Of a stretch of DNA of 64,000 bases, positions 2,005 through 34,877 are shown piece by piece (positions within the stretch are counted from its first letter, which is position 1; every line of letters begins with the position of its first letter). Position numbers and translations under genes: made by a program. Source of the stretch: Sphingobacteriales bacterium 44-61. GTDB taxonomy: Bacteria; Bacteroidota; Bacteroidia; Chitinophagales; Chitinophagaceae. The notes below the pieces were generated by a model. That model saw only the letters and a program-made list of their open reading frames with translations. It searched no databases and was not told the DNA's origin. The stretch covers positions 1 to 64,000 of the forward strand of contig MKTW01000009.1 in NCBI GenBank assembly GCA_001898405.1, in the 5' to 3' direction.

Positions 2005-5000
2005 TTATAATCCCAATGCTTTTAAAATATCTGGGTATTCTTTATATATTTTCCTTGCAGCATCTTCTACTTGTTGAGCAGTGGCTGTTGCCGTTGTCAC
2101 AGCAGCCTTTGAACCATTATATCCAATTTCAGCTCTCCATGCATTTGTAAACACCTGATGCTCGGTTTCTGTTACAACTATCGAAAGCATATTATCAGCG
2201 TTTTGCCCTAGCAAACCAGCAAATCGTTTTTCGATCAAATGATGTACTTGGGTCTTTGCAACATCATTAAGAGCTCTTAATGCTTTGTATGATTTAATTC
2301 CAAAACGCCCCGCATGAGTTAACCTGATTATGCCAATCACTTGTTTTACCTTTCTTAAAGTAAAAAGCCACTTAGCAGCCGTGCCTAACTTGGATATGGG
2401 AACAACCCATGAAGCAAACTCTCCCCATTCTTTCAACATTTCAGTTGTGGTTCCGATCTTATTAAATGAATGATCCCACGCCCGATAATTCACATATGCT
2501 TGCCTTTTATAAGGGTCTTCACTCCACGGATTAACATTGTAATTTTTGCGAACCGTCATTCCCGGCCCATTAATAATCACCGTTGCTTTGGGTTTCGGAT
2601 CAGAAGTCACAATTGCATTTTGTCCTACCACTGGATTCAAACTATCCGAAAGAAGACCTGTAGGGTCATTTAAAAGAATGGGATTATTGTTGGCATAATT
2701 ATATGGTGTCCAGTCTTCAAATTCTTCAGCTAATGCATCTATCTGAACAAACCTGCCAATCTGTGAGTCAAACAGCCTAAAATCAGTTTCGTAAAGATTA
2801 ACATCCAAAGATGTATTTAATTCGGTTCCATCGTTAAACTTCTTCTTATTCTTAGGATTCCCAAACTCCAACGCCTTAGAACTGATCCCCGCCATCGTCA
2901 ACCCGAACGGATAATAATGCGTTTCCTCTAAAAGAGATCCCCTGATGTGCGTCACCTGCAAATTATCAAAGAACACATCTATATTCTCCGTCACATTGCT
3001 CGTGTAAATGTACAAATATCCACTCTTCGTCAACTCCCAATCCGTTATATGATGATCTCCCCATGCCCCACTTCCTGCCACTTGCTCCGTCCAGCTATTC
3101 TTTCCATCATTGGTGATCACCGCTTTGAACTGCTCATCCAGCAATAGGCAGTTGATATAAGCTTTAGGCTTGCCGCTTGTATAGCCCTGATTATTCATGA
3201 ATGCATCCGCTGCACTCAGTGGAAGCCCGCTGCTGGCTAATTGAGTACTGGTATATTTACCGCCAGCCAGGTCACCAATACTGCCGGCCAGGGCTGATGC
3301 TACTTCTGCCAGCGGGTTCGGGCTGTTGACCGGGCTGCTGCCACTGCTCCACCAGCTGTTCACCTTCAGATTGATCTTGTCTCCTGCCATTACTTTCAGC
3401 AGGATCGCCGGGCCGATCTTATTGCCATCACCCCGCAGTTTCGCTGCTTTATCGTTAGGATCAGTAGTCGGGTCACTTGGATATCCTGAAGGCTTGTCAG
3501 AGCGGGTAGCGTCCAGGTTGCTGTAAAAAGTATTTTCTGTGGCTGCCTGGGCTGTTTCCATGGTAGCGGCTGGGTAAGCATCCTCTTTCCACTGATCTGT
3601 CAGGACTATCCGCACATTTCCTAAATGGTCTTTCACCATGAAATCATATACAAACCCCGTGATCTCTGTCAGATCGTTGCTATTATCATACAAAGGCCGT
3701 ACACGCCCCTCCTCATGGCCCATGAACTGCAACTTACGGGCATATCCCATTGCAGCATTCACTGTCGCATCATCATAAACCTTACTCTCATATACGGCAC
3801 CCCCGAGGTAATAAGTAGTCGTTGTAATATTGGTATTTACCGGACTGCCATTATATTGTACATCTACATTATTTTCAATCGTCTTTTTTTGCAGTTTGTT
3901 TCCAGCAGCGTCATAGATATAGCTTATCGTCCCCTTATCTGTGGTATTATCATCTTTTTTTACGGCTATCTGCCAGGGCAGGTTCAGATGGTTATACTGA
4001 ATAGCTCCACCACTGGTTACATCCAAACCTGTAGCTCCACCGCCTTTGATACGCTTGTTGAGATCAGTTACCAGGTTACCGTTCTTATCATAACCATAAT
4101 CATCGCCACTTGTATTCAGATCGGTGAAATCGCCTAACTTATGATCAACCGCATTGGTTTCACTTACGCCGCTCAATTTATTGGAATTGGAAAAATAAGT
4201 GTACGCCAGATCATCAATCATTTCGCTGCTGCCTATTTTCAAACCCCATTGCTGCATGCGCTTGATATTACCATTTTCATCATAAGCAGAACCGGCTGTG
4301 CCATCGCCCATGCGCACGTCAAACTTTACAGTATTATCGTCTGCATAAGCAGAGCCATTATACTGGCTGAAATCCGCTTCCATAAAACGATTTACCTGGT
4401 CATAGCTAAACCCAAATGCACGCTTCTGGTCATCGCCGCGGCTGCGCCACTTCACTCCTGCAATATTGCCATTGTACTGGTTGCTGGCAAAGCCCCAGTC
4501 ATAGTTCAACTCCATACCAAACCAACGGGTGTTGTCAAACTGCGTGGCTGAATTGGTATAGGTCTTATTGATGCCTTTCAGCCAGCCGCGGATATTATAG
4601 ACATGATCAAGCGTTTCAATTGGATCGTTAGTGTATACACCTGTATTATCCCGCTTGCGGCCCAGTTTTTTGGTGATTAATTGTCCAAGTTCATCGTATT
4701 CGTTTTTGGCAATAAGGGTAGAGGTTGATGATTCATCATTTATGGTTTTCCAGGTCTCTAGTAAACGGCCAGCATAATCATACTTCATGTTGGTCTTTAT
4801 ACGCAACTCTTCTGCTCCTGGCAAATTGCGTACCTGGTAAATGGTGAGCACCTTACCGCTAAAGTCGTAGCGGCTGGTAATAATATCCTTGCCTCCTTCA
4901 TAAATGTCTGACTGTGTCTGCACCAATCTTGCTTTGTCGTCGTAAAAATTGACAGTGCTGAGCCAGGGACCTGTTGATAATGTAGCCGGATTTTCGATTA

Positions 5001-6660
5001 CCCGGACCTGAATGCCGGTAGTAAGACCTTTTACTTGTGAGGACGCTTGAGAAGGAAGTGTTTCTGCATGCAGGTTACCAAAATCGTCAAGATCACTATT
5101 ATGTGCCGTCGTATAGGTGTTAGAAGTCCACTCGTAATCGTCATAATACGTTTTAGTAAGCGCAACAAAGCTGGCGCCAGTTGGTATAGGGTTTTTGTTC
5201 ACCGCTATTCCATCTATTACAGTTGTTTCACCATCAGCGCCACTGGTACCGGAAATGATCTCAGCAGTGAATTCTCCACCGGTTGTTGTTTCAAAATCCG
5301 GTTGCAGTGTAATAGATTGCAGCGCCTGATATACACCTGTAGTTCCCGATGCATTGAGATAAAGGTTGACAGGAGTAGAAGTATTGGGGCTGGAGGGTGT
5401 CTGCGTTTGCGTATTCACAGATGTTTGCAGTGCAGCAGGGCTTCCCCCGGAATATACCATCATTCCGGTCAGTACCTGCCGGTTCAATCCATCATATAAA
5501 GTGGCCAGCCACTGGTTATTGGGACGCATATTAGCATCTTGCGTAAATACCAACCGGTCCCGTACATCATACACCATGTATACCCAGCCCGAGCCAGGTA
5601 CTTTTTTGGCGATCATACGACCACGCTCATCATACTCATAGCGGAAACAAAGTTCTTTCACAATATCCGAGGCAAACGACCAACCAGGCTGAATTGCTGT
5701 CACAGCTTTGGGAGGTATTACAAACCGCAGCTGATTGAGATCATCATATATATAGTATGTGCATAAGAAACCTGTATAACCACTATAATCACTGGCAACA
5801 GTTCCCGATTGTACCTTTTTCAGAATTAGCTGGCCTTGTTTATCCTTATACTCAACAGTCGCATTGCCTTGTTCATCCAGTATCACGGTTTTGTATAATT
5901 CCCCTGCCGGATATGGATTAGTTTCGGCAGCAGGTATATTCGTTGATGCATCTTCCGTTATATCGTAGCTAAGTGCATTGCTGCTGATGGTCCAGATCTT
6001 CACAGCATCATCCAGGGTATTGATCCTGTACTCTGTTTTAATTGCTTTTTCACTGCTGGGGCTGGATGGATTGTAGGAGCCTGCCCAGCTATTGCCTGCA
6101 GCAAATACTTTCAATGGGCGATTAAGAGGAGAAGCTTCAAATTCAGTCCGGTTGTAAAAGGCCTGCTCTCCGGCATACTGACTATTTCCCGTATAAAAAC
6201 TATTCTGCTCCTCGAATGCATTCGTTTTAAATGTACCTGTATTGTTATTGGTTGAAGATTGTACATACGGCAGATATTTAAATGTTTCCCTGCCAAACTC
6301 ATCATATACCACTGGTGTTACCAGGTCATGCACACCAGGGCTTATCTGTCTTACTATTGTTTGTAGTGGACGGCCAAGACCATCCAGGTATTGCGTGGTT
6401 TGTTTCGCATGCTGATAGCCTGCATTTACAAGATCCGTAGAGTTCTGGTAAGGACCTGCAGCGTCCCAGATACGTACATAATTTAGTGGGATCGTACCCG
6501 AATAATCACCAGGTCGTGTAGCTATCTGACCTGTGGGTGCTGGGGTCTGAACAACGGAAATAGATGGCTTATTGGATAGCTGGCCCAGGGCAATACCGGT
6601 ATAATTTATCAGTATCCCTAATACTATACTTTTAATAAAAAGCTTCCTGGTCTTTGACAT
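2005..6660 (-). CDS. RHS-repeat polymorphic toxin with C-terminal HNH-like nuclease tip
   Basis: The 1551-residue protein starts with a signal peptide (residues 1-27, ending IALGQ), then a DUF6443-like N-terminal region rich in YD motifs (LDGLGRPLQ, YDEFGRE, YDDLNQL, YDERGRM). The RHS core lies at about 1245-1335, with YYPFGLTMAG, LYETDFRLFDSQIGRFVQID and NNNPILLNDPTGL; the last matches the DPxG-type motif at which RHS shells cut off their tip. The final 215 residues are the variable tip. From residue 1471 it reads QVHHLIEKRF...TEHQVFTNAWR, with His1473, His1474 and His1501, which resembles HNH/EndoVII-fold nuclease toxins. I infer a DNase-type contact or secreted toxin. Base composition becomes AT-rich inside the last ~800 bases of the gene, a sign of tip exchange. 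Confidence 0.82.
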   Translation of the reverse strand: MSKTRKLFIKSIVLGILINYTGIALGQLSNKPSISVVQTPAPTGQIATRPGDYSGTIPLNYVRIWDAAGPYQNSTDLVNAGYQHAKQTTQYLDGLGRPLQTIVRQISPGVHDLVTPVVYDEFGRETFKYLPYVQSSTNNNTGTFKTNAFEEQNSFYTGNSQYAGEQAFYNRTEFEASPLNRPLKVFAAGNSWAGSYNPSSPSSEKAIKTEYRINTLDDAVKIWTISSNALSYDITEDASTNIPAAETNPYPAGELYKTVILDEQGNATVEYKDKQGQLILKKVQSGTVASDYSGYTGFLCTYYIYDDLNQLRFVIPPKAVTAIQPGWSFASDIVKELCFRYEYDERGRMIAKKVPGSGWVYMVYDVRDRLVFTQDANMRPNNQWLATLYDGLNRQVLTGMMVYSGGSPAALQTSVNTQTQTPSSPNTSTPVNLYLNASGTTGVYQALQSITLQPDFETTTGGEFTAEIISGTSGADGETTVIDGIAVNKNPIPTGASFVALTKTYYDDYEWTSNTYTTAHNSDLDDFGNLHAETLPSQASSQVKGLTTGIQVRVIENPATLSTGPWLSTVNFYDDKARLVQTQSDIYEGGKDIITSRYDFSGKVLTIYQVRNLPGAEELRIKTNMKYDYAGRLLETWKTINDESSTSTLIAKNEYDELGQLITKKLGRKRDNTGVYTNDPIETLDHVYNIRGWLKGINKTYTNSATQFDNTRWFGMELNYDWGFASNQYNGNIAGVKWRSRGDDQKRAFGFSYDQVNRFMEADFSQYNGSAYADDNTVKFDVRMGDGTAGSAYDENGNIKRMQQWGLKIGSSEMIDDLAYTYFSNSNKLSGVSETNAVDHKLGDFTDLNTSGDDYGYDKNGNLVTDLNKRIKGGGATGLDVTSGGAIQYNHLNLPWQIAVKKDDNTTDKGTISYIYDAAGNKLQKKTIENNVDVQYNGSPVNTNITTTTYYLGGAVYESKVYDDATVNAAMGYARKLQFMGHEEGRVRPLYDNSNDLTEITGFVYDFMVKDHLGNVRIVLTDQWKEDAYPAATMETAQAATENTFYSNLDATRSDKPSGYPSDPTTDPNDKAAKLRGDGNKIGPAILLKVMAGDKINLKVNSWWSSGSSPVNSPNPLAEVASALAGSIGDLAGGKYTSTQLASSGLPLSAADAFMNNQGYTSGKPKAYINCLLLDEQFKAVITNDGKNSWTEQVAGSGAWGDHHITDWELTKSGYLYIYTSNVTENIDVFFDNLQVTHIRGSLLEETHYYPFGLTMAGISSKALEFGNPKNKKKFNDGTELNTSLDVNLYETDFRLFDSQIGRFVQIDALAEEFEDWTPYNYANNNPILLNDPTGLLSDSLNPVVGQNAIVTSDPKPKATVIINGPGMTVRKNYNVNPWSEDPYKRQAYVNYRAWDHSFNKIGTTTEMLKEWGEFASWVVPISKLGTAAKWLFTLRKVKQVIGIIRLTHAGRFGIKSYKALRALNDVAKTQVHHLIEKRFAGLLGQNADNMLSIVVTETEHQVFTNAWRAEIGYNGSKAAVTTATATAQQVEDAARKIYKEYPDILKALGL

Positions 6661-17350: not shown

Positions 17351-18733
17351 ATGCAGCACATTTTCTGTCTGGCCTGGGTAATAGATGAGGATACAAAACT
17401 CGTATTCGCCAGCGATTCTTTCTACAAACATTTTAATCTATCCGCAGATCAATGCGTTGGGAAACGTGTCACCACATTTATTCCTTCCGCTTTCACCAGG
17501 GCTGTTTATGACAAGCATATCCAGGCGCTGGAAACAAACAAACCGATCAGCACTACCCAGCAGATACAATGGGTGAATGGAAATACCTTCAATTTTTATA
17601 TCAATATTTTTCCTACAAACTGTCCTCATTCCGGAAAAAAATTGCTTTCCGGCCAAGCCGTTAATATTCCCGACATAGGCCATATCGAAAAAGAGTTACG
17701 GCAGGCAAAGGAACGCATCCTTCATCTTACCCGTGCCACTTCAGATGCCATCTGGGAATGGGATATGCAAACCGGCCAGATATTCAGGAACGAAGCACTG
17801 ATGCAAATGATCGGCTATCAATGGGACAATTCAAAAGGGCTTTCCTGGTGGCTGCGCCGCATTCACCCTGAAGACCGCGACCGCCTTGCCGATAAAGTAA
17901 GGGACGCCACGGACCGCCATAAAAAATCATGGGAAGATGAATACAGGTTCAAGTGTGCAGATGGCAGCTATAAACATGTACAGGACAAAGGATTTGTGGT
18001 GTATGAAAATGACCTGCCGGTGAAAATGATCGGATCATTGCAGGACGTGTCTCCATTGATACAATTGCGCAATGAACTGGCTGATGAGCGGCTGCAACGC
18101 CAGAAAGAAATTGCAGAAACCGTGATCCGCGCCCAGGAAAAAGAAAAAACACGGATCGGCCACGAGCTGCATGATAATGTGAACCAGATATTACTGACTG
18201 TAAAATTGTTCATTGATAAAATAGAGGCCTGTAAAGAAGAGCAGCAGGAGATAAAACAAAAAAGCAGCGAGTATATCAGCCTTGCTATTGAAGAGATCCG
18301 CAAGCTGTCCAAAGAACTTGTAGCTCCCCAACTGAAAGAGGAAAGCCTTATTGGCAATGTGCAAACACTGGTGAAAGACATTGAACTGGCCGGGGCCATG
18401 AATGTCCGTTTCACTCACGAGCAGGACGGAGGCATTGAACAATTATCATCCGGAAAAAAGATCACCCTTTTCAGGATAGTGCAGGAACAATTAAAAAACA
18501 TCCTCAGACATAGCCAGGCATCGCTTACTCAAATTGCATTAACCAGCAAAGAAGGGAAGATCGAATTGCTTATTAAAGACAATGGCAATGGCTTTGACCC
18601 GCGCCACACTTATCAGGGTATCGGCTTTTCCAATATCCGTGAGCGCACCGAATTTTACAATGGTGCCGTTCAGGTAGACTCTGCTCCCGGCAAAGGATGC
18701 ACATTGAAAGTGCTGTTGCCAGCCTTTGAGTAA
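17351..18733 (+). CDS. PAS-domain sensor histidine kinase (HisKA_3/NarL type)
   Basis: The 460-residue protein is soluble. Residues about 5-110 form a PAS-like sensor (WVIDEDTKLVFASDSFYKHF), and about 125-245 a PAS_3-type domain (TSDAIWEWDMQTGQIF...WWLRRIHPEDRDRL). The HisKA_3 dimerisation box is EKTRIGHELHDNVNQ, with phospho-acceptor His274. The ATPase domain follows with RIVQEQLKNILRHSQ (N box) and DNGNGFDPRHTYQGIGFSNIRERTEFYNG (G boxes). Kinases of this type phosphorylate NarL/FixJ-type regulators; the nearest is the LuxR-type protein at 21249. There is no membrane segment, so it senses something in the cytoplasm. The N-terminus starts directly in the PAS fold, and the frame is closed by a stop upstream at 17294, so ATG 17351 is the first possible Met. 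Confidence 0.85.
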   Translation: MQHIFCLAWVIDEDTKLVFASDSFYKHFNLSADQCVGKRVTTFIPSAFTRAVYDKHIQALETNKPISTTQQIQWVNGNTFNFYINIFPTNCPHSGKKLLSGQAVNIPDIGHIEKELRQAKERILHLTRATSDAIWEWDMQTGQIFRNEALMQMIGYQWDNSKGLSWWLRRIHPEDRDRLADKVRDATDRHKKSWEDEYRFKCADGSYKHVQDKGFVVYENDLPVKMIGSLQDVSPLIQLRNELADERLQRQKEIAETVIRAQEKEKTRIGHELHDNVNQILLTVKLFIDKIEACKEEQQEIKQKSSEYISLAIEEIRKLSKELVAPQLKEESLIGNVQTLVKDIELAGAMNVRFTHEQDGGIEQLSSGKKITLFRIVQEQLKNILRHSQASLTQIALTSKEGKIELLIKDNGNGFDPRHTYQGIGFSNIRERTEFYNGAVQVDSAPGKGCTLKVLLPAFE

Positions 18734-18873: not shown

Positions 18874-21246
18874 ATGCAATTACCATCGGATATCTTTTTG
18901 CAACAACGGCTGCGCCGCTGGTCCAGGTATCTTATATATATTATCCTGACGATCGCGCTGCTCGTGCTCGCCGGGTGGGAGTTTAATATTACCTTACTCA
19001 AAAGTATCTCCAGCCAAACGGCAGCAATGAATCCGGCATCAGCCGTATGTTATATACTCCTTGGTCTTTCATTTCTTTGGAGCAACCGCACAAAGAAAAC
19101 AAAACAGACAGTTATTGCAGGGTATGCATTCGCTATTCTTGTAATGTTCACCGGCCTGTATATCCTTGCTGGCCTTTCATTTGATATGGGTTTCCACCCC
19201 GATTCAATTCTGTTTATTAATAAGCTTGGAGAAAACACCAAAGGCGGTCAACCCAATCAAATGGCGCCTAACACGGCAGCTTGTTTTTTATTGGCAGGGA
19301 TTTCTTTACTGCTTCTGCAATATGAAAATAAAAAAGGGCTTATAGTTACTCATTTCATCGCGCTCGTTATTGCCTTGCTGAGTTTACTTTCCCTGTTAGG
19401 TTATCTGTACCAGGTACAGGAGTTTTACGGCGTGTTCAATTATGTAGCCATGGCATTGAACTCGGCGATCTGTTTTTTTCTTTTTGCCATCGCTCTTCTT
19501 TTCGCCAATCCCGGGATCGGGTTCATGAGGGAGTTCACTTCTTCATTAAATGGCAGCCTTACAGCAAGATTATTAATACCTGTCGCCATCATCGTGCCTG
19601 CAGCTTTAGGCCTGCTGCGCTTGTGGGGCAATTGGGCCGGAATATACAGCTATGAGTTTGGTGTGGTAGTGTATGCTTCCATCACCATACTTATTTTTAT
19701 AGGCATTGCCTGGTACAATACGCATTCACTTAACCGACGGGACCTGCTGGAAAAGCAGATGGAAAACAGACTCAAATCTTTTAATGAAGAACTGGCGCTT
19801 AAGGTAGAAGATAAAACCACCGAGTTGCGGGAAGCAAAAGAGCTGGCCGATAAACTCATCTTCAGCCTTCCCGGTGTATTTTATTTCTTTGACCACACCG
19901 GTAAATTCATCCGTTGGAATAAACAACTTGAAGCGGTCACCGGCTATTCAGCCGAAGAGATCGCGGATATGCATCCCTCCGACTTTTTTGTTGAAGAAGA
20001 TAAAGCCTATATCATTGAGCGCATTCAGGGTGTGTTTGAGATGGGAATGAACGACGCCGAAGGGCGGTTCCTGACCAAAAGCGGCAATATATTGCCTTAC
20101 TTCTTTAAGGCCGTTAAGATAAATTACGAAAGCGGCCCCTGCCTGCTTGGAACTGGCATTGACATCACTGAACTGAAAAAGATAGAGGAAGATCTTCGAA
20201 ACTCAGAGCAGAAATACAAATTGCTGTTTGAAAGCAACCCACTGCCCATGTGGATGCTCAGCCTTCCCGACTATACGATCATTGAAGTGAACACTGCTGC
20301 ATTAAAACAATACGGCTATACGCAGGAAGAGTTTTTACATCTTGACATATTCATGCTCAGGCCTGATGAGGATATTGAGCGGCTGAAAGCAGCTACCAAC
20401 CGGCAGTTCAGAGGCATCTATTACGCCGGTATCTGGCGCCATAAAAGGAAAAGCGGTGAGATCATTTATGTGGATGTGGTAACCCATGATATCTATTATG
20501 AAGGAAAGCCGACGCGTTTGGTACTTGCCAATGAAGTGACGGAGCAATATCTCGCCGAAGAAAAATTGAAAGAATCATATGACGCAACAAGAAAATTGAC
20601 AGAGCATCTGCAAAACGTAAGGGAAGAAGAACGTCTTCATATTGCCAGGGAAATACATGATGAACTGGGGCAGTTGCTCACTGTTTTAAAAATGGATGTA
20701 TCATGGCTCAACAGAAAACTTCAACCTGCCAGTGAGCCGGTAAAAGAAAAAATAACCGAGCTTCTTTCGTTGATCGATGTGACAGTAAAAAAAGTACGGC
20801 ATATTTCTTCTGAACTAAGGCCCAGCCTGCTGGATGATCTCGGCCTGATAGCCGCGATAGAATGGCATACCGAAGAATTTCAGAATCGATCGGGTATCGG
20901 TATCGAAGTGACCCTGCCTCCGGCAGAATTATTATTGCCCGAACCGGTCAAGATCGGTTTGTTCAGAATACTGCAGGAAGCGTTGACGAATGTGGCGCGG
21001 CATTCGGGAGCAGATAAAGTAGTAGTGACCTTGTTACAAAAAGAGAATAGCTTAATTTTAACCATCAAGGATAATGGTAAGGGTTTTGATGCAGAAAACG
21101 CAAAGAAAAAAACCTTAGGCTTACTGGGAATGAAAGAAAGGACCCTGATGATCGGAGGAGAATATAAAATAACAGGCGTGCAGGGCGAGGGTACCATCGT
21201 GGAAGTGATAGTTCCATTACCTGCTTTTGCCAAAGAAAACCGTTGA
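18874..21246 (+). CDS. Membrane-bound PAS sensor histidine kinase (HisKA_3 type)
   Basis: The 790-residue protein begins with about seven membrane segments between residues 18 and 290, a MASE-like input region. Two PAS domains follow, about 325-435 (SLPGVFYFFDHTGKFIRWNKQLEAVTGYS) and 450-565 (LLFESNPLPMWMLSLPD...EVNTAALKQYGY). The HisKA_3 box EERLHIAREIHDELGQ places the phospho-His at 595, and the ATPase domain has RILQEALTNVARHSGA and DNGKGFDAENAKKKTLGLLGMKER. The gene is followed after 2 bases by a LuxR-type response regulator, so the two are a clear pair. The long linker (MENRLKSFNEELALKVEDK) is a signalling helix. The ligand is unknown. Confidence 0.88.
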   Translation: MQLPSDIFLQQRLRRWSRYLIYIILTIALLVLAGWEFNITLLKSISSQTAAMNPASAVCYILLGLSFLWSNRTKKTKQTVIAGYAFAILVMFTGLYILAGLSFDMGFHPDSILFINKLGENTKGGQPNQMAPNTAACFLLAGISLLLLQYENKKGLIVTHFIALVIALLSLLSLLGYLYQVQEFYGVFNYVAMALNSAICFFLFAIALLFANPGIGFMREFTSSLNGSLTARLLIPVAIIVPAALGLLRLWGNWAGIYSYEFGVVVYASITILIFIGIAWYNTHSLNRRDLLEKQMENRLKSFNEELALKVEDKTTELREAKELADKLIFSLPGVFYFFDHTGKFIRWNKQLEAVTGYSAEEIADMHPSDFFVEEDKAYIIERIQGVFEMGMNDAEGRFLTKSGNILPYFFKAVKINYESGPCLLGTGIDITELKKIEEDLRNSEQKYKLLFESNPLPMWMLSLPDYTIIEVNTAALKQYGYTQEEFLHLDIFMLRPDEDIERLKAATNRQFRGIYYAGIWRHKRKSGEIIYVDVVTHDIYYEGKPTRLVLANEVTEQYLAEEKLKESYDATRKLTEHLQNVREEERLHIAREIHDELGQLLTVLKMDVSWLNRKLQPASEPVKEKITELLSLIDVTVKKVRHISSELRPSLLDDLGLIAAIEWHTEEFQNRSGIGIEVTLPPAELLLPEPVKIGLFRILQEALTNVARHSGADKVVVTLLQKENSLILTIKDNGKGFDAENAKKKTLGLLGMKERTLMIGGEYKITGVQGEGTIVEVIVPLPAFAKENR

Positions 21247-21248
21247 AC

Positions 21249-21878
21249 ATGTTGAACATTCTTATTGCAGATGATCACGCTGTTGTCAGAAGAGGTTTAA
21301 AACAAATTTTACTGGAAGAATATCCATCCGCCAGGATAGGAGAAGCCGCCGATGCAGAAACATTGGTTGCGCAGGTCATAAACGATAAGTGGGATATTGT
21401 GATCTGCGATATGAATATGCCGGGACGGAGCGGACTGGATGCATTGAGCCAGTTGAAACAGGTAGCTCCTCATGTTCCCGTGCTGATCATGAGCATGTAT
21501 CCGGAAGATCAATATGCCTTGCGCGTACTGAAAGCCGGAGCTGCAGGCTACCTTGGAAAAGACAGTATCCATGATGAGATCATTCGGGCAGTGCAAACAG
21601 TATTGTTAGGCAAAAAATTCATTACTCCTTCAGTAGCAGAAAAGCTGGCCAATGCCTACCGTGATGATACAGGTCAGCAACCCCATGAATTGCTTTCAGA
21701 CCGGGAATTTGATGTGTTCAAATTACTGGCAGCCGGCAAATCTGTATCTGAAATTGCCAGCCAGCTTTCCCTGAGCAGCACTACGGTAAGCACCTACCGT
21801 GCCCGGATCATTGAAAAGATGAACCTTCGCTCCAATGCGGCACTTACACGGTATGCTATTGAGAAGAAGATAATTTAG
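21249..21878 (+). CDS. NarL/FixJ-type response regulator, LuxR DNA-binding domain
   Basis: A TTG at 21243 overlaps the kinase stop, but the ATG at 21249 gives the family N-terminus MLNILIADDHAVVRRG. The 209-residue protein has a receiver domain (about 1-120, phospho-acceptor Asp54 in DIVICDMNMPG, acidic pair DD at 8-9, Lys in YLGKDS) and a LuxR-type helix-turn-helix at about 140-205 (LSDREFDVFKLLAAGKSVSEIASQLSLSSTTVSTYRARI). It is the partner of the kinase just upstream and should bind an inverted-repeat site when phosphorylated. Candidate targets are the palindromes in this window. Confidence 0.92.
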   Translation: MLNILIADDHAVVRRGLKQILLEEYPSARIGEAADAETLVAQVINDKWDIVICDMNMPGRSGLDALSQLKQVAPHVPVLIMSMYPEDQYALRVLKAGAAGYLGKDSIHDEIIRAVQTVLLGKKFITPSVAEKLANAYRDDTGQQPHELLSDREFDVFKLLAAGKSVSEIASQLSLSSTTVSTYRARIIEKMNLRSNAALTRYAIEKKII

Positions 21879-21897: not shown

Positions 21898-21915
21898 TGT
21901 AGTATAAAATCTACA
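21898..21915. promoter_or_regulatory. Operator-like dyad upstream of receiver gene 1
   Basis: TGTAGTATAAAATCTACA has TGTAG/CTACA arms and spans 18 bases. It is 104-121 bases upstream of the receiver gene at 22019. The matching 18-base dyad at 22440 is at the same distance from the next receiver gene. Confidence 0.5.
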
Positions 21916-22018
21916 CCATTTGAAAATCCTGTGCTACAAGCCGTTCGGTCGGAAACAGGTATTTTGCATAAGGCGTTGTGTTGGGCGTGTGTTAAAAAAG
22001 ATCGGCGCCTCCACGGCT

Positions 22019-22384
22019 ATGCTACGTATCATTATTGCAGATGACCATATTCATATACGCAAAGGGATCGTTCAATTGCTTGAGGATGAATTCGGTGCAT
22101 TACATACCGAAGAGGCAGAGAACGGTATCGAGCTATTTGATAAGGTAATGACAGGCCCCTGGGACCTGGTTATTTCCGATATGGTAATGCCTGGTGGCAA
22201 TGGCCTGGAAGCGTTAAAGAAGATCAAAAAGGAAAAAAAGGAATTGCCGGTCATTATTGTCAGCACTTATCCCGCAGAGCAATATAAATCAAGGGTTATG
22301 GAAGCTGGCGCTGACGACTTTATCAGCAAGGACGCATTTTCCACTCACCTTATCCCATCGATAAGGCGGATATTGAAAAATTAA
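22019..22384 (+). CDS. Stand-alone receiver-domain response regulator
   Basis: The frame is open for 33 codons upstream, but the ATG at 22019 gives the canonical start MLRIIIADDHIHIRKG. The 121-residue protein is a receiver domain only: DD at 8-9, phospho-acceptor Asp54 (DLVISDMVMPGG), a Ser/Thr switch residue (VIIVSTYPAEQYKSR) and Lys in DDFISKDAF. No output domain follows, so it must act by protein contact, for example as a phosphate sink or shuttle for the nearby HisKA_3 kinases. Its sequence is close to the receiver of the LuxR-type regulator upstream, which suggests a duplication that lost the DNA-binding part. Confidence 0.85.
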   Translation: MLRIIIADDHIHIRKGIVQLLEDEFGALHTEEAENGIELFDKVMTGPWDLVISDMVMPGGNGLEALKKIKKEKKELPVIIVSTYPAEQYKSRVMEAGADDFISKDAFSTHLIPSIRRILKN

Positions 22385-22439
22385 CACTCCGTATTCAACC
22401 AACTATACCCCATTCCTGTTCCTAATTGAAACAATAAGA

Positions 22440-22457
22440 TGTAGTGAAATCACTACA
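22440..22457. promoter_or_regulatory. Operator-like dyad upstream of receiver gene 2
   Basis: TGTAGTGAAATCACTACA has perfect 8-bp arms around a 2-base centre and is 107-124 bases upstream of the receiver gene at 22565. It shares the TGTAGT...CTACA frame and the 18-base length with the site at 21898. Confidence 0.55.
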
Positions 22458-22564
22458 GCCTTGCCTATGTAAGCTGTACGCCATTATTATGGTTGACTCT
22501 ATTTTTTAAAGGCTCTGTTGATCATTACTTTGTTGTTATGATGTACTATCGAAAAACCAGTAAG

Positions 22565-22930
22565 ATGCTCTCCGTTCTTATTGTTGATGATAATGAGGAG
22601 TTTGTTGAACGCATGATCGATCTTCTCGTTGATGTGGAAAGCATCAGCAGTATTCAAACTGCCAGTGACTATAATGAAGCATTCCGTATGCTCGATAATA
22701 AAGCACATGATGTTGTGCTGTTAGATATAAATCTTTCTGGAAAAAGCGGCATCGATCTGCTGCAAAAGATCCAGGAACTGGGCTGGAACTGCAACGTGAT
22801 TATGATCACGAACTCATCCGGCAGATATTATAAGAGAGAATGCAAAAAGCTTGGAGTTACTCACTTCCTGGACAAAACGAATGAGTTTGAAAAAGTGCCG
22901 ATGATCATTACGTCCATTAGCCCAAATTAA
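22565..22930 (+). CDS. Stand-alone receiver-domain response regulator
   Basis: The ATG at 22565 (MLSVLIVDDNEEF) is chosen over one 72 bases upstream, which adds residues not typical of receivers. The 121-residue protein has DD at 8-9, phospho-acceptor Asp54 (DVVLLDINLSGKSG), Thr in VIMITNSS and Lys in FLDKTNEFEKV. It has no output domain. It is more distant in sequence from the LuxR-type regulator than the receiver just upstream. It likely works as a phosphorelay intermediate or partner-binding switch in the same circuit. Confidence 0.82.
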   Translation: MLSVLIVDDNEEFVERMIDLLVDVESISSIQTASDYNEAFRMLDNKAHDVVLLDINLSGKSGIDLLQKIQELGWNCNVIMITNSSGRYYKRECKKLGVTHFLDKTNEFEKVPMIITSISPN

Positions 22931-26846: not shown

Positions 26847-27001
26847 AACCCTGAAAGTAAACCACCTGTCACTATCTTCAAAATTTAGCCGGCGAAGTGT
26901 AGTAAATGTCAATTGGAACGTATGAGGTACGGAAGGATTTGCGCCTGCCAGTGTTGCTGAGAAAAGGGTACGGTACGGTTAGGGTATTGTTATGTAAAGC
27001 A

Positions 27002-27433
27002 TCATTTGTGTTGCGTCTTGGAATACGAAGCGTTGATCATCGTATCAGACAGAATGGTATAGCAAGCAGTCCACGCCTGTTTCACTTCAGGCACCCAATC
27101 CCTGCCCATGCCCTGCTCAAGCGTCCAGAACAATGCATTGCCTACTGCTGTATAGTGTTCTGCCTTCACACCATAACGGACATGGCGGCGTGCCATTTCA
27201 GAAATGTCATCTGTCAGTTTATCTATCTGGTGCAACCGGCCTACGATCAGGTTGACCATAGCCAGTAATTTCTGATATTGCTCTCCCATGTCTTTAGGGA
27301 AGAGACGGCGCAGGCCGGGATGCTCCATGAACAGCTTACTGTAAAACACATCACCTACTAATTTCGGGTCAATTCGTCTGAAAGGCCCCCAGGTATTTTT
27401 TACCAACTGTATTTGTTCTACTGTTAAACCCAT
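27002..27433 (-). CDS. Single-domain bacterial globin
   Basis: The 143-residue protein is a globin of the flavohaemoglobin-like type without a reductase domain. It has the CD-corner pattern YSKLFMEHPGLRRLFPKDMGEQYQKL (Tyr31 in helix B, Phe45 at CD1, Gln52/54 near E7) and proximal haem ligand His84 in ARRHVRYGVKAEHYTAVGNALFWTL. The Tyr/Gln distal pocket is typical of globins that handle NO or bind O2 tightly. Expected role: cytoplasmic NO detoxification or O2 sensing, with an external reductase. The gene stands alone. The exact gas chemistry is inferred from the family. Confidence 0.85.
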   Translation of the reverse strand: MGLTVEQIQLVKNTWGPFRRIDPKLVGDVFYSKLFMEHPGLRRLFPKDMGEQYQKLLAMVNLIVGRLHQIDKLTDDISEMARRHVRYGVKAEHYTAVGNALFWTLEQGMGRDWVPEVKQAWTACYTILSDTMINASYSKTQHK

Positions 27434-28677: not shown

Positions 28678-29550
28678 TTATTTCAGTTTGAAGAGCACAC
28701 CAACTTCCCATTGCTGGCCATAGCCATCTTTATTGTTGCTGCCATACCCTACATTCACCTCACCCATGTCTTTTACTGTAACACCAAGCATGCCCTGCAA
28801 GCTTCCGGTGTTTTGGTACAGCAAGCTTGCATGGAATATTTTTTCATATTCCAGTTGCAGGCCACCTGCAAACAGGTCCTTCTGGTTGATGAAATGCTTG
28901 AATGATGCCAGCGGTTTAAGGTTGATATCTTCTTCCACTGCGAAAGAATAGGAACTCATCAATTGAAAGATCGGAAGATCACTTGGCCGGATGCTTTCTT
29001 TTTGTACCGCCCTGCGGATATTCAGCAATGAACCGGCAAAAGTGAATTGCTTGCTTTCATATACGGCACCGAATTCTCCATCGAGATAAACGCCCTTTTC
29101 ATTGAATGCCCTTACAGCGGGATCGATCGCACCATCATTACCCAACACTTCATTATTAAGGCGTTCACGGTAGGTATTCAGGCCTACGCCCAAACGGAGC
29201 TTTTGAGTTTCATTAAAATCGATCCGGTAAGAATAATTAAATCTTGCACTCACCCGTTGCAAAGCCCCGGCTTTATTGCTCGATACAACCAACCCGGCAC
29301 CAGAGCGGGTGCTGAAACCAAAATCACCTGCAAAAGTGATAAGGGTGGGCGCTCCGTCAAACCCGATCCAACTCCTGTTGGCCAGGCCATATAAGACCGG
29401 TTTCTTGCTTGCCCCTGCATAAGCCCCGTTCCAAAGATACCCATGCCTGTAATACTGGCTGATCGGGTTATTAGTATAAGTCTGTGCTGAAGCTGAATAC
29501 CCGGTAAACAGGCAGCTCAGCATAACGATACAGATATAAAAGTTTTTCAT
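28678..29550 (-). CDS. PorP/SprF-family type IX secretion membrane protein
   Basis: The 290-residue protein has a signal peptide (residues 1-22, SASAQ) and then the family pattern of PorP/SprF: NPISQYYRHGYLWNGAYAG near the N-terminus, and alternating beta strands to the end (VLFKLK). Proteins of this family are outer-membrane barrels that hold or help export large T9SS type B cargo such as the adhesin SprB. It lies 25 bases downstream of the gene for a huge protein with a gliding-motility C-terminal domain, which is the usual pairing, so it is inferred to serve that cargo. Confidence 0.85.
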   Translation of the reverse strand: MKNFYICIVMLSCLFTGYSASAQTYTNNPISQYYRHGYLWNGAYAGASKKPVLYGLANRSWIGFDGAPTLITFAGDFGFSTRSGAGLVVSSNKAGALQRVSARFNYSYRIDFNETQKLRLGVGLNTYRERLNNEVLGNDGAIDPAVRAFNEKGVYLDGEFGAVYESKQFTFAGSLLNIRRAVQKESIRPSDLPIFQLMSSYSFAVEEDINLKPLASFKHFINQKDLFAGGLQLEYEKIFHASLLYQNTGSLQGMLGVTVKDMGEVNVGYGSNNKDGYGQQWEVGVLFKLK

Positions 29551-29575
29551 TTTATTGATTTTAATAGAATATGAA

Positions 29576-32500
29576 TTATTTAATGATCGTAACCGACCCT
29601 TTTTTGATCACCTTGCCATTAACGGTCAGCACATAGAAATAGGTGTCGTTTACTAAAGCCCTGTTCTGGATCTTACCATCCCAGTTATTGGCATAGTTCT
29701 GTTTCTCATATACCAGTTTTCCTGAGCGGTCAAATACCTGCAACCTGTTGTTCGGGTATGCATCGATATTTTCGATCACAAAACGGTCGTTGACTCCATC
29801 ACCATTGGGAGTAATGATAGCTTTGGGCGCGATCACCGAAAGATCATCCTCAACAGTAATGGAAATGCTACCGGTAGCTGTACAACCTGCATCGCTGGTT
29901 GCAGTTACTGAATAGTCTGTATTTGAGAGTGGACGTGCTACGGGGTTCAGGTTTTGTGGGTCGTTCAGACCGGCAGACGGGCTCCATTGTATAGAAGCTA
30001 TATCTGATCCGGTAATAGTCAACTGGCTGCTATTGCCTTTTGAAAGTTTGTTGCCCTTTTCACTATTGATGGTGAATACCGGGTTGGGGTTCACGGTAAT
30101 GCGAAGGGTTTTCACTACTTCATCTGTACCGTCATGTTCAGTGCCCGCATTATCCTTCACTTTCACAGATACCAGGGCTGTTCCTGCTACATTGGCTTTT
30201 ATCGTAAACCGGATCTCTCCTGTTGCACCTGTACCACTTACGGTCAGTGATTCAAACAGGGAGTTGTTATCGGATTTTACGGAAAGGGTAGTAGTCTGGT
30301 TGGTTTCCGGTCCGGCAGAAATGCCTGCGAGGGCAATAGTCTGCTGCGTATTCACAAAGCAGAGTGTTTTATCTTCCGGCTGATCAAGGGTCGGTATTTC
30401 ATTCACATCGGTGATCACTACTGTAACAGATTTTTCCAGCCACAGGCCATACTGTGTAGTGGAGCGCACCCTCACTGTATAGGTTGATCTTTCTTCATAA
30501 TTGAAAGAGGCGTTCGACATCAACTTGTCTCCATTAATGGTGAACAGTTGGTTATCTGCATCACCGTCACCACTTACAAGAGTGAAAGTGAAAGTCGCAG
30601 ACGGATCATCTGACAATGAGCTTAACATTCCTGCGAGTGTTTCTGCAGGCTTGTTCTCTGGCAACACAGCCTGACTGAAATTAATGGCAGTAGGTGCGCC
30701 GGGTTTAACGGTAAGTGTTCCGGCAGTATAACTGATCTCGTAGTTAGCAGCATCGGCCCCCGACACTTCAATGGGATATTCTCCCATAAGGCTGGCCTGC
30801 GTGGCGGTGGTGCTGAGAACAGGACCAGTGATCAGCACTTCCGGTCCTTCATTACTTACGAAACCGGAATAGCTCTCCGTAAATGCAGGGTTTGGAGTTC
30901 CTGCAAATCTCTCTTTATCGTCAGCAGTTATCATCAGCGCCTTGCGGCTGATGCTGCCTGTTGTGTTTGCACTTTGCGTAGTGAGTGAATAATTTGCCTT
31001 ATCTGCACCTGATAAAGTAAAGCTGCCGGCAGTAACAGTTTTATTGCTACCTGCATTCTTATTGTCAAAATCGGCTGTACCTGAAACCAGTACATCATCG
31101 TTCCCGACAACGCCGCTAAGCTGATAGTTCCCGGCGGCAAGGCTGATGCCTGTGGCACCATCGTACTCTTTACTGATAACAGGAGTGCTATTCAAAGTAA
31201 GGGTGAGTTCGCGGGCGGTAATATTACCAGTGGTTGTGGCAGTTGCTGTGCTAAGTGTATAGTTTCCTGCGCCTGCTCCTGCCAGGATGAAATCCTCCAC
31301 ATTGATCGTTTTGTTATTTCCGGCCTGCGCATCTTCATACTTTGCATTACCGCTTACAGAAACAAGGTCGCCACCGACAATGCCGGTCAGTGAATAATTA
31401 GCTGCTGCAAGGGCCGCATTGTTAGTGCCATCATAGACCCTCGTGATTTCCGGACTGCTGTTGAGCGACAGGGTTATGGGTTTTGCCGTGATATCGCCAC
31501 TGGTGGCGGTTGTTGTGGTAGTCAGATCATAGTTCAGCTTATCTGCACCATCGAGAGCAAGACTGGTTACAGTAATAGTTTTACTGTTTCCGGTGTTCTT
31601 GTTATCATAACTGGCAGTTCCCGATACTTTCACCTCATCGTTATTCAGTATACCTGACAGCGTATAATTAGCTTCTGTGAGAACTGCAGAAGTATTGCCA
31701 TCATATTCTTTGGTAATAAGCGGGCTTGTGGTGAGAGATGCGGTAATGGGTTTTGTGGTGATGGAGCCGCTTACAGCAGCCGATGTTGTAGTAAGTGAAT
31801 AGTTGCTTTGGTCGGTTCCCTGCAATGAAAGGTTGGTAACGGTAATGGTTTTACCGGTTCCTACCTGTTTTGTATCATAGCTGGCCGTGCCACTGGCAGA
31901 AACATCATCGCCACTCACCACTCCGCTCAACTGGAAATTACCGGTTGCCAGCGAGGCAGTCGCAGTTCCGTCATATACCTTCGTAATGACAGGGCTTGCA
32001 TTTAAGGTAATAGTAACTGGTTTTGTAGTGATCTCACCAGTTGTAGAAGCAGTATTGGTAGAGACAGTATAATTGTTCTTGTCTGCACCTGAGAGAATAA
32101 AATTGTTGACGGTTACAGTTTTACCGGTTCCTGCCGTTTCATTGTCGAAAGTGGCTGACCCTATTACGGCAACGGTTTCCCCGCCGATCACTCCTGTCAG
32201 TATATAATTTCCTGCGGCCAGTGATGCAGATGCAACTCCGTTGTATACTTTACTGATGGCCGGCGTTGACTGAACGGCTACTGTCAAGCTCCTGGTTGTA
32301 ATAGCTCCCGTTGTGCCCGCACTGGTGGTGCCAAGCGTATAATTATCTTTGCCTGTTCCTGAAAGGGTAGGATCGGTAACTGTGATCGTTTTACCGGTAC
32401 CGGCATTTTTATTATCGTACGAGGCTGTACCGGTAATGGTTACCTGGTCGCCGCCAACCAGCCCGGTAATACCGAAGTTACCTGCGGCCAGTGATGCTGC

Positions 32501-34369
32501 AGTTGTGCCATCATATTCTTTAGTGATCGCAGGTGTTGCAATCAGAACAAAACTCAGCGGCTTTGCGGTGATATTGCCCGTAGTAGTTGCACTGGTGGTT
32601 GCGAGGTTATAGTTATCTTTCTGAGCACCGGAAAGCGTGATGCCCGAAACAGTAATATTTTTTGCTGTGCCAGCATTCTTATCTGCATAGCTGGCCGTGC
32701 CACTGGCAGACACTTCATCACTTCCTACTATACCACTTAGTATGTAGTTGTCCACTGCCAGTGTAGCGTTCATATTGCCATCGTACACTTTTGTGATAAG
32801 AGGTGTGGCATTAAGAGTAAGAGCAAGGCTTTTGGGCTGTATGGTAAGTGTTTGAGTTTGATCTGCTGCCGGGTTATGCGTAGCATCACCCGCCTGTGTG
32901 GCCGTAATAGTGGTGGTGCCTGCTTTCAGAATATGGACCTTTCCATCCACGATCGTTGCAACAGCCGTGTTGCTGCTGGTATAGGTAACCTGAATAGAAG
33001 AATTATCACTTGTAGCGCCGGGGTCAAAATCAGCATCACCATAAGTAACGTTGTTCGTAGCGGCAAAACTGATCTGTTGATCAATCTTAGTAATGGATGT
33101 TTCGAACATCCAGGTATGCATGCCGCTGATGCCTGCAAAAGAGATATCCCCGAGGTCAAGGAAAGCGCCTGCATCAACGAGAACGTATACCTCCGTTTGA
33201 GAGGGGAGGTCGGCAGCAGGATCGATTGTGACAGTAGAACCGCTGATCGTGACATTACTGCTGTTCACACTGATCTGTTCAATAATGCTGTTATCGTCTG
33301 CTTTGTAAATAGTGATATTGCCTGTCCCTTTTTTGATATCCGTAATGAACTCCATAGTCAGGTTGGCACTTTTGGAGATATCCGATGTATGTGTGGCTGG
33401 GTTAAGACTGGAAACCACAGGACCAGTCAGCCTTTCGATAATATTGGCCGGAGATAATTTCCTGACGCGGAAATTGTCAAAATAAATTACGGCTACGCTG
33501 GTGGCGTATCCCCATACACCTGCACCTGTATTATATACTTTGGGCAGGTCAGCGATCTTGTGATTGTCGAAATAGATTGCAGACCCTGAGCCTGTATGTT
33601 CAATACTCCATTTATACCATATATTGTTGTTATGCGCATAAGACCAGGCTTTCGAATAATTCGCGCCACCTTTCGTGATCAGCGAATGCATGATCTGATT
33701 GGCGGGAGCAGTCATTGAATGGATGGCATAGTAATTGTCATTATCGGTGTATTCAAAAAGAGGGCCGCCCATCGCAGTTGAATTATCATTCAGGTAATCC
33801 ATCTCCACTGCATAATCAGTTAACGAGCCTGTGTATTTTACAGCAGCGGTGCCTGAGCCCGCTACCAACGCAGAGCCTTTCAGCCTTTTGCTGCCGCCAT
33901 AATCAGCAATTGTCCATGAACTGGTCCCGATAGTAGTCCAACCGCTGAGCGCTCCGCTTTCAAAATCATCAAAAGATTCGAAAGTAGCTGCGCCATTGCT
34001 GGCTGCAGTAGCTGAAGGATTACCATAATACATGGTCAGAATGGTAATGGCATTGGCCGGCAGGGAATTTACTTTTACCCAGATAATGGTATTCGCGGTG
34101 TTGATCCCCGATTCGATCCAGTAGCTAAGGTTATTACAGGATGCATCGGTAAACCGTATATCGTTTCCGCTTGCCAGCATCTGCCCTGCACTGATCAGTT
34201 CCTGGGTGTTCACTTCCACTTTCACCTGGAAGTCTGTCAGCGCAGACCCTGTGTTCCTGAAACTGACTTTCTTTGAATAACTGTAAGCAGGATAGCATTG
34301 GGCATATAAATGCTCCTGTGATGCCAACACGAACAGTAAAATGAAAAAGAGTAGAGTTCTTCTAAACAT
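29576..34369 (-). CDS. Large YDG/MBG-repeat surface adhesin with T9SS type B C-terminal domain
   Basis: The start is the ATG at 34369 (MFRRTLLFFILLFVLASQEHLYAQ), a good signal peptide; 22 upstream codons are open. The 1597-residue protein has a DUF2341-like domain and a lectin-like region (about 30-320), a Big-like domain, then seven tandem repeats of about 90 residues (YDGT...LSGVVGGD.V..SGTA.Y..KNAG..KTITV), an MBG-type domain, a cadherin-like region and Ig-like domains. The end (PKAIITPNGDGVNDRFVIENIDAYP...YFYVLTVNGKVIKKGSVTIIK) is the gliding-motility-associated C-terminal domain that directs T9SS type B export. It should be exported and displayed as an adhesin. A PorP/SprF partner follows. 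The repeats are divergent in sequence, so not recently expanded. Confidence 0.88.
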   Translation of the reverse strand: MFRRTLLFFILLFVLASQEHLYAQCYPAYSYSKKVSFRNTGSALTDFQVKVEVNTQELISAGQMLASGNDIRFTDASCNNLSYWIESGINTANTIIWVKVNSLPANAITILTMYYGNPSATAASNGAATFESFDDFESGALSGWTTIGTSSWTIADYGGSKRLKGSALVAGSGTAAVKYTGSLTDYAVEMDYLNDNSTAMGGPLFEYTDNDNYYAIHSMTAPANQIMHSLITKGGANYSKAWSYAHNNNIWYKWSIEHTGSGSAIYFDNHKIADLPKVYNTGAGVWGYATSVAVIYFDNFRVRKLSPANIIERLTGPVVSSLNPATHTSDISKSANLTMEFITDIKKGTGNITIYKADDNSIIEQISVNSSNVTISGSTVTIDPAADLPSQTEVYVLVDAGAFLDLGDISFAGISGMHTWMFETSITKIDQQISFAATNNVTYGDADFDPGATSDNSSIQVTYTSSNTAVATIVDGKVHILKAGTTTITATQAGDATHNPAADQTQTLTIQPKSLALTLNATPLITKVYDGNMNATLAVDNYILSGIVGSDEVSASGTASYADKNAGTAKNITVSGITLSGAQKDNYNLATTSATTTGNITAKPLSFVLIATPAITKEYDGTTAASLAAGNFGITGLVGGDQVTITGTASYDNKNAGTGKTITVTDPTLSGTGKDNYTLGTTSAGTTGAITTRSLTVAVQSTPAISKVYNGVASASLAAGNYILTGVIGGETVAVIGSATFDNETAGTGKTVTVNNFILSGADKNNYTVSTNTASTTGEITTKPVTITLNASPVITKVYDGTATASLATGNFQLSGVVSGDDVSASGTASYDTKQVGTGKTITVTNLSLQGTDQSNYSLTTTSAAVSGSITTKPITASLTTSPLITKEYDGNTSAVLTEANYTLSGILNNDEVKVSGTASYDNKNTGNSKTITVTSLALDGADKLNYDLTTTTTATSGDITAKPITLSLNSSPEITRVYDGTNNAALAAANYSLTGIVGGDLVSVSGNAKYEDAQAGNNKTINVEDFILAGAGAGNYTLSTATATTTGNITARELTLTLNSTPVISKEYDGATGISLAAGNYQLSGVVGNDDVLVSGTADFDNKNAGSNKTVTAGSFTLSGADKANYSLTTQSANTTGSISRKALMITADDKERFAGTPNPAFTESYSGFVSNEGPEVLITGPVLSTTATQASLMGEYPIEVSGADAANYEISYTAGTLTVKPGAPTAINFSQAVLPENKPAETLAGMLSSLSDDPSATFTFTLVSGDGDADNQLFTINGDKLMSNASFNYEERSTYTVRVRSTTQYGLWLEKSVTVVITDVNEIPTLDQPEDKTLCFVNTQQTIALAGISAGPETNQTTTLSVKSDNNSLFESLTVSGTGATGEIRFTIKANVAGTALVSVKVKDNAGTEHDGTDEVVKTLRITVNPNPVFTINSEKGNKLSKGNSSQLTITGSDIASIQWSPSAGLNDPQNLNPVARPLSNTDYSVTATSDAGCTATGSISITVEDDLSVIAPKAIITPNGDGVNDRFVIENIDAYPNNRLQVFDRSGKLVYEKQNYANNWDGKIQNRALVNDTYFYVLTVNGKVIKKGSVTIIK
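30947..32836 (-). repeat. Seven tandem coding repeats of about 270 bases (YDG domains)
   Basis: Each unit encodes about 90 residues with the order TP.I.K.YDG, then SLAAGNY.LSG..GGD.V, SGTA.YDNKNAG.GKTITV, LSG.DK.NY.L.T.SA.TTG.IT. The repeat edges are at constant distance, giving seven units in 1890 bases. Sequences differ at many positions at the protein level. Confidence 0.85.
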
Positions 34370-34877
34370 ATTGGTTTTTTTAATAGAAAGAAATGCCATA
34401 TCACCCCTGTGGGGTGAAACGATAAGAGTATTCACGTAATTAAAATGAGGCGATCGCTGTTAGCTAAATCTTGTAAGACTGTCGAGATGATGCATACAGC
34501 CTGAAGTAATGGATCGGTAAATGAAAGAAGTGTAAAATTGGTTCGTCATACAATGGTGGTTTTTACAAAGATGGTGGTGAAACTATTTGTTTGTATCGAG
34601 GCGAAAACGGTGCTCATCGGATTATATTGTCAATGCAAGAAAAAAATGTAAAAGACTTGAGAATTGTCAAACTCGCATAAAGCAGATTTAAGTGTAAATA
34701 CTGTTGAAGCAAAAGTTATCATATCAAAAGCTGAAATAATTCTTATATGTGTACGCTTCATTTCTTTTAGCCGCCGCTTTATTGGTAAAACACCACACTT
34801 AAGCCTTATTCCTTTTTTCCTGATAAAATGCAGTCGCAATTTTGCGCCCTCATTAAACCTTATTAATATTTTTTATC
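34370..34877. other. Divergent intergenic region with promoter motif
   Basis: This 508-base stretch separates the YDG-repeat adhesin (minus) from the membrane protein (plus). The motif at 34551-34570 (minus CTTTGTAAAAACCACCATTG) is shared with the region upstream of the tail-fibre-like gene. I see no gene; a 69-codon minus frame at 34630-34839 lacks any family signal. Confidence 0.5.
34551..34570 (-). promoter_or_regulatory. Motif shared with the tail-fibre-like gene promoter
   Basis: On the minus strand CTTTGTAAAAACCACCATTG; the site at 12995-13020 reads TTTGTAAGACCACCATTTTA. It lies about 182 bases upstream of the adhesin start and overlaps a CATCTTTG box similar to that of the 44-codon mini-gene. 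Confidence 0.4.

Follow-up and report, generated by a model that had tools for sequence, protein, structure and literature searches.

The window, i.e., the whole stretch of 64,000 nucleotides analysed here, is part of a 5.58 Mb genome (contig C9). On its forward strand lies a cluster of kinase, regulator, and receiver genes with two short palindromes (dyads) between them:

17351-18733, forward strand: second PAS histidine kinase (Pfam), a member of the conserved cluster
18874-21246, forward strand: sensor histidine kinase with PAS, PAS, HisKA_3, and HATPase_c domains (Pfam)
21249-21878, forward strand: NarL/FixJ-type response regulator, receiver plus GerE (Pfam Response_reg, GerE)
21898-21915, forward strand: dyad 1, TGTAGTATAAAATCTACA (TGTAGT-ATAAAA-TCTACA), 11/12 letters of TGTAGT-N6-ACTACA
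22019-22384, forward strand: stand-alone receiver 1 (Pfam Response_reg, 9.2e-27)
22440-22457, forward strand: dyad 2, TGTAGTGAAATCACTACA (TGTAGTGA-AA-TCACTACA), 12/12 letters of TGTAGT-N6-ACTACA
22565-22930, forward strand: stand-alone receiver 2 (Pfam Response_reg, 4.7e-21)

The sensor kinase at 18874-21246 is presumed to be the partner of the NarL-type regulator, and its relatives adjoin the regulator in G001, G004, G013, and G020. G001 is a sister species and the closest relative found in our searches; its regulator is 92% identical to that of the window, and its receivers 1 and 2 are 80% and 85% identical. Both G001 and G004 keep the whole cluster of kinase, regulator, receiver 1, and receiver 2. 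In G013 and G020, the regulator and receiver 2 are present, and the regulator is followed by just one receiver gene. Receiver 2 is 37-45% identical in G004, G013, and G020, and relatives of the second PAS kinase are found behind it in these three genomes. Past receiver 2, the opposite strand encodes a LytTR regulator and then a propeller kinase, which is adjoined by a gene for a globin-domain protein of 143 aa (27002-27433, minus strand; 76% identical in G001). The window also encodes, on its minus strand, a DUF6443-domain protein of about 1550 aa (2005-6660) and a PorP/SprF-type membrane protein beside a 1619 aa protein (28678-34435). The latter has a type IX secretion signal (CHU_C) in addition to seven stretches of the YDG domain.

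The regulator has the NarL/FixJ-type architecture, with matches to Response_reg (8.9e-27) and GerE (6.5e-18), and its nearest solved relatives are DesR, VraR, and NarL. It could not be placed in a named functional subfamily such as UvrY/GacA, NarL, NarP, or FixJ: none of the 25 NCBIfam models listed (of 94) reaches its cut-off, the best being UvrY/SirA/GacA with 170 bits against a cut-off of 280. Pairs of a NarL-type regulator and its operator are already known as such. In one study, NarL sites have an inverted 7-2-7 heptamer layout, as in the engineered site TACCCCT-AA-AGGGGTA (PMC4549865). Dyad 2 can be read in the same way, as inverted heptamers GTAGTGA-AA-TCACTAC about a 2-bp center, although its heptamer GTAGTGA differs from TACCCCT and would imply a different specificity.

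The two 18-mers had been picked out in an earlier note on this DNA, and both are present at 21898 and 22440. Of the distances to the ATG codons given there, the 107 bases behind dyad 2 are correct, while the 104 bases behind dyad 1 are 103 by our measurement (ATGs at 22019 and 22565). Dyad 2 has perfect 8-base arms about its 2-bp center and dyad 1 is less perfect. The words ACTACA and TGTAGT are also used in the BlaI/MecI operator, with the halves pointing the opposite way, ACTACA before TGTAGT. An exact search for TGTAGT-N7-CTACA in the window returned both dyads and no others. When two mismatches were allowed there were 15 matches against a chance mean of 11.2, i.e., no excess, and thus the window alone proves little. 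At most one mismatch to TGTAGT-N6-ACTACA was found at eight places in the whole genome, and the reversed control pattern was commoner (27 places).

Two of these eight places are the window pair, 542 bp apart. The others were considered as further targets and rejected. Three fall within ORFs, at C10:195022 (704 aa), C16:137734 (131 aa), and C1:811330 (155 aa). The intergenic dyad at C1:717204 (TGTAGCAGTTGCACTACA) is located 133 bp before a 444 aa ORF and has a different promoter geometry. The remaining two, on C2, precede an ArsR-type gene. They are near-equal dyads (C2:392363-392406), 26 bp apart and directly before the ArsR-type gene, which is followed by an AHSA1-domain gene. The second of them ends 2 nt before the ATG, which leaves no room for a promoter of either class described below. 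Such a placement would suit a repressor, and the double dyad is probably an ArsR autorepressor site of look-alike sequence. A half-site proposed near 26895, before the propeller kinase, does exist (TGTAGT on the forward strand, 26898-26903), but it is not conserved in the one comparison made, with G001, where the coding strand reads GCCACACTTCGC in place of TACTACACTTCGC. A TGTAGT half-site just before the start of the sensor kinase (18874) is likewise missing from the matching stretch of G001.

The dyad is conserved behind the regulator gene across the family. The G001 copy of dyad 1 is identical (18/18) and the G004 copy is TGTAGTTAAAACACTACA; for dyad 2, the G001 sequence is TGTAGTGCCACAGCTACA and the G004 sequence TGTAGACCTCGCACTACA. 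No full TGTAGT dyad was found in the locus stretches of G013 and G020. Regulator orthologs (E at most 1e-40) are encoded by 152 of 394 Chitinophagaceae genomes. We looked for the dyad in the 200 nt that follow the regulator gene at 90 loci from the top of the ortholog table, comprising the best 30 and 60 later rows, with about 10 rows between them skipped. It is present with at least 10/12 letters at 67 of the 90 loci and with at least 11/12 at 53. In comparison, 59 other arrangements of the arm letters reached a maximum of 7 loci and 1 locus at these two thresholds. The spacing is also specific: a spacer of 6 gave the 53 loci at 11/12 or better, and any other spacer from 0 to 14 gave at most 2. 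When regulators were thinned to below 80% and below 70% identity, the dyad remained at 41/59 and 24/33 loci, respectively (these counts take in one extra locus, in which the dyad overlaps the gene end). The earlier note had held that an absence of conservation in relatives would speak against a functional operator. We found the opposite at most of these orthologous loci, and the operator proposed there is strongly supported both by this family-wide conservation and by the occurrence of the same composite element before other genes.

The conservation has limits. At 23 of the 90 orthologous loci there is no dyad at 10/12 or better. In a second panel of 80 loci from named genomes, which shares many genomes with the first, the dyad by our own count is present at 54 of 65 loci with a regulator identity of at least 56% and at none of 15 with an identity of 50-56%. 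A further 30 loci with weaker matches gave a dyad within 200 nt behind the gene in 3/7 cases at 50% identity or above and in 0/23 below it. Eight of these 23 loci, which belong to more distant NarL paralogs, do carry a similar dyad ahead of the paralog's own start, at a distance of 14-280 nt (in G002, G108, G124, G267, G375, and G404). Several NarL regulators may therefore share the motif. At six loci of distant paralogs the dyad is only 14-61 nt from the start, which suggests autoregulation through a related motif. At the regulator locus itself, dyads go together with receivers: a receiver-containing ORF begins on the same strand within 450 nt at 55 of 68 dyad loci vs. 7 of 22 loci without a dyad, and 50 of these 55 ORFs encode proteins of at most 165 aa.

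Promoter-like elements tend to recur at set distances from the dyad. The following were recognized in the window:

21934-21938, forward strand: half-site CTACA, one 23-bp step beyond the right half of dyad 1
21960-21967, forward strand: putative -7 element TATTTTGC of the TAnnTTGY type (class A), conserved in G001
22475-22479, forward strand: half-site TGTAC in the +36 position, its TAC aligned in this genome, G001, and G004
22499-22507, forward strand: CTATTTTTT in the -33 position, 23 bp beyond the dyad 2 half-site
22525-22532, forward strand: putative -7 element TTACTTTG (class B), from the family alignment

In an alignment of 82 sites from family loci, anchored on the dyad, TACA is found at +37 in 32 sites (mean 0.8 per position), CTATTT at +59 in 17 (mean 0.3), and TTTG at +89 in 22 (mean 0.9), the last with a second peak at +65/66. 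From +88 to +90 there are 37 occurrences of TTTG over the 82 sites. The half-sites step by 23 bp from the dyad toward the promoter. We distinguish two promoter classes. Class B, defined by CTAT near +59 and a TTTG-type -7 element near +89, is found in 32/82 sites and in none of the shifted control windows. Class A, defined by TAnnTTGY near +62, is only weakly supported family-wide, since its 13/82 sites compare with 5.3 in shifted windows. Neither class fits 37 of the 82 sites. Class B is largely a property of the second sites of a locus (23/27 vs. 9/55 first sites).

These predicted elements may in part correspond to known promoters of the phylum. In a study of Flavobacterium psychrophilum, the sigma-A box is TAnnTTTG and a further motif, SM5, is TAnnTTGY (PMC9723704). 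The putative class A element behind dyad 1 fits SM5 and the putative class B element ends in TTTG as the sigma-A box does, whereas class B sites tend to TTnYTTTG at -7 and have CTATTTT in the -33 position. In TTACTTTG, behind dyad 2, the TTTG matches the sigma-A box and the TA does not. The -7 element behind dyad 1 reads TAATTTGC in G004. With the -7 elements set at -12 to -5, transcription would start near 21972 and 22537, and the dyad centers would lie near -65 and -88. The two window dyads thus differ by about 23 bp in their position relative to the predicted promoters.

Equal spacing to the ATG had been taken in the earlier note as a sign of either a functional operator or a duplicated promoter. 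The second gap is indeed steady (107 bases here and in G001), but the first drifts, from 103 bases here to 96 in G001 and 82 in G004, and the distance from dyad to promoter is steadier than that to the start codon. In the aligned sites, dyads tend to keep a fixed distance from promoter-like elements. There is no sign that a duplicated promoter gave rise to the pair: the two intergenic regions show no clear alignment with each other and their predicted promoters belong to different classes (A and B).

The class B composite, i.e., the dyad, 40-43 bases, TATTT, 18-24 bases, and TTTG, was used as a search pattern. This gave 66 matches, distributed over 37 of the 394 family genomes and 19 of 101 genera, compared with a single match for the reversed control. 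Of the 152 genomes with the regulator, 36 have the composite, vs. 1 of the 242 without it (Fisher p 1.9e-15, which overstates the independence of the genomes because they share ancestry). The lone exception, G143, is only 78% complete. The exact composite is missing from 116 of the 152 regulator-carrying genomes. In a sample of 395 genomes from the phylum, none of the 381 outside the family has the composite; the two that match it are among the 14 family members. By our own count from the coordinates, the regulator locus accounts for 21 of the 66 matches and the other 45 lie away from it; among the recognizable genes behind these are orphan kinase ATPase-like domains, an RpoD-like sigma factor, and a few receivers. 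For 59 distinct composites, we took as target the longest ORF with its ATG between 85 and 700 bases downstream, a rule that may pick the wrong gene, and some of the sites come from close sister genomes. Eighteen composites precede ORFs of a single protein family (mostly 130-155 aa), nine precede receiver proteins (several of them at the regulator locus), six precede kinases (in five cases with a receiver ORF first), and two precede a sigma factor. A further 15 precede single unrelated ORFs, and nine have no ORF of at least 50 aa.

None of six scanned members of the 18-member family has a Pfam match above the cut-off. When eight members were combined in a profile, it matched the VanS catalytic ATPase domain (E 1.5e-9) and, more weakly, those of other kinases. 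This match suggests that the family is an orphan kinase ATPase domain, probably a degenerate one. Stand-alone ORFs of the family, of at most 199 aa, are present in all 17 tested genomes with the regulator. In three of three tested genomes without it, matches are confined to ORFs of at least 266 aa. The family is multi-copy and many of its members are under the same type of operator; among 30 retrieved loci, 20 have an upstream dyad with CTAT in the class B position. The single stand-alone copy in the present genome (C3:73876-74253) has no recognizable operator within 650 nt, and the same is true of its relative in G001.

With the left half of the dyad dropped from the composite pattern, a search of the window's own genome returned two places, dyad 2 and C1:55320. 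The latter reads TGTCGA-ATAACG-ACTACA (10/12), followed by CTATTTTT and TTCCTTTG. From the start of its dyad it is 119 bases to the ATG of a gene for a sigma-70 factor of 289 aa. This RpoD-like protein has regions 1.2, 2, 3, and 4 and falls below the cut-off of all 25 NCBIfam models listed (of 54). The same element precedes a copy in G001 that is 87% identical. Most of the family genomes searched contain two to four such sigma-factor matches. Among 22 regulator genomes (our own and 21 others), 12 have a dyad of at least 9/12 together with CTAT in the class B position before a sigma gene: our own, G001, G282, G072 (9/12), G316, G192, G075, G160, G344, G185, G223, and G118. G004, G241, and G340 have only CTAC and CTAT in register, and the other seven have neither element. 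The site was absent from nine genomes without the regulator; this comparison is uneven, since one to three paralogs were viewed in the regulator genomes and only the best one in the nine.

We consider it likely that the dyads are activator sites of the adjacent NarL-type regulator (21249-21878), serving both receiver promoters. An upstream activating site is the most likely function because of the fit to the 7-2-7 layout, the NarL-type protein, the gene neighborhood, and the co-occurrence of composite and regulator. The main rival explanation is that the dyads are operators of another factor, e.g., a NarL paralog encoded elsewhere, with the adjacent regulator a mere neighbor, or that such a paralog binds them in addition to it. 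Candidates are not lacking, as there are 28 receiver matches in this genome and distant NarL paralogs with a similar dyad upstream (8/23 loci). A different binder would nonetheless have to account for a composite that tracks the presence of this regulator (36/152 vs. 1/242 genomes) and for a dyad directly behind its gene at 67 of 90 loci, and we regard it as unlikely. These comparisons showed no link between the dyads and the LytTR regulator. Somewhat less probable again is that the adjacent regulator binds the dyads and represses the receivers. Repressors often use palindromic operators and position is not decisive by itself, but predicted centers near -65 and -88, with half-sites stepping to -33, are the usual layout of an activator.

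Both dyads lie behind a stop codon, a scan listed dyad 2 as a minus-strand stem resembling a terminator, and the region has three terminator-like stems vs. a mean of 0.8 in shuffles. These observations would fit RNA elements, either leader hairpins or transcription terminators between genes. The arms, however, are conserved as letters and covary little; at the sixth pair, only 51 of 107 sites are Watson-Crick (the sites were picked by consensus match, which favors the outer letters). Folding is not clearly above that of shuffled sequence (z -0.51 and -1.45), nothing in the window matches Rfam at gathering scores, and promoter-like elements lie downstream of the dyad. With no stable stem kept by compensatory changes, we do not favor an intrinsic terminator or RNA leader, and RNA elements in general are very improbable here. 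That the two palindromes are alike by chance would agree with the lack of excess in the window at two mismatches; set against 67 of 90 loci, where other arm arrangements reached at most 7, coincidence is scarcely credible.

On the activator reading, an active sensor kinase (18874-21246) would phosphorylate the regulator, and dimers of the phosphorylated protein would bind TGTAGT-N6-ACTACA. The bound regulator may contact the further half-sites stepped 23 bp toward the promoter and would then activate RNA polymerase at the promoters of both stand-alone receiver genes. The receivers, in turn, would probably provide feedback to the kinases, serving as phosphate sinks or adaptors. What sets this apart from NarL systems is the array of half-sites stepped by 23 bp and the fact that the recognizable targets are signaling proteins. 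An undescribed regulon headed by such sites is the best reading of the pattern. In the open-access literature, with subscription journals mostly outside the coverage, we found no description of the regulator, the motif, or the regulon, no account of a promoter design stepped by 23 bp, and no RpoD-like sigma factor or orphan ATPase-like domains under such a site.

More tentatively, the regulon may extend across the Chitinophagaceae. It is possible that the NarL-type regulator switches on receivers, degenerate ATPase domains, and the RpoD-like sigma factor, and that the sigma factor, whose own gene has a promoter of this kind, recognizes the CTATTTT/TTnYTTTG promoters, which would form a self-reinforcing loop tuned by the receivers and ATPase domains. 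As part of the same tentative reading, the promoters of the regulon may have a distinctive design, consisting of the dyad, half-sites every 23 bp, CTATTTT at -33, and TTnYTTTG. Chitinophagaceae genomes encode many two-component proteins, few of which have known targets. In this case sequence alone yielded a regulator with a likely operator, a promoter geometry, and candidate targets, and the geometry stepped by 23 bp is a usable search pattern for annotating more genomes. As the recognizable targets are signaling parts, the system could act as a hub in which phosphorelay capacity and polymerase specificity are adjusted together.
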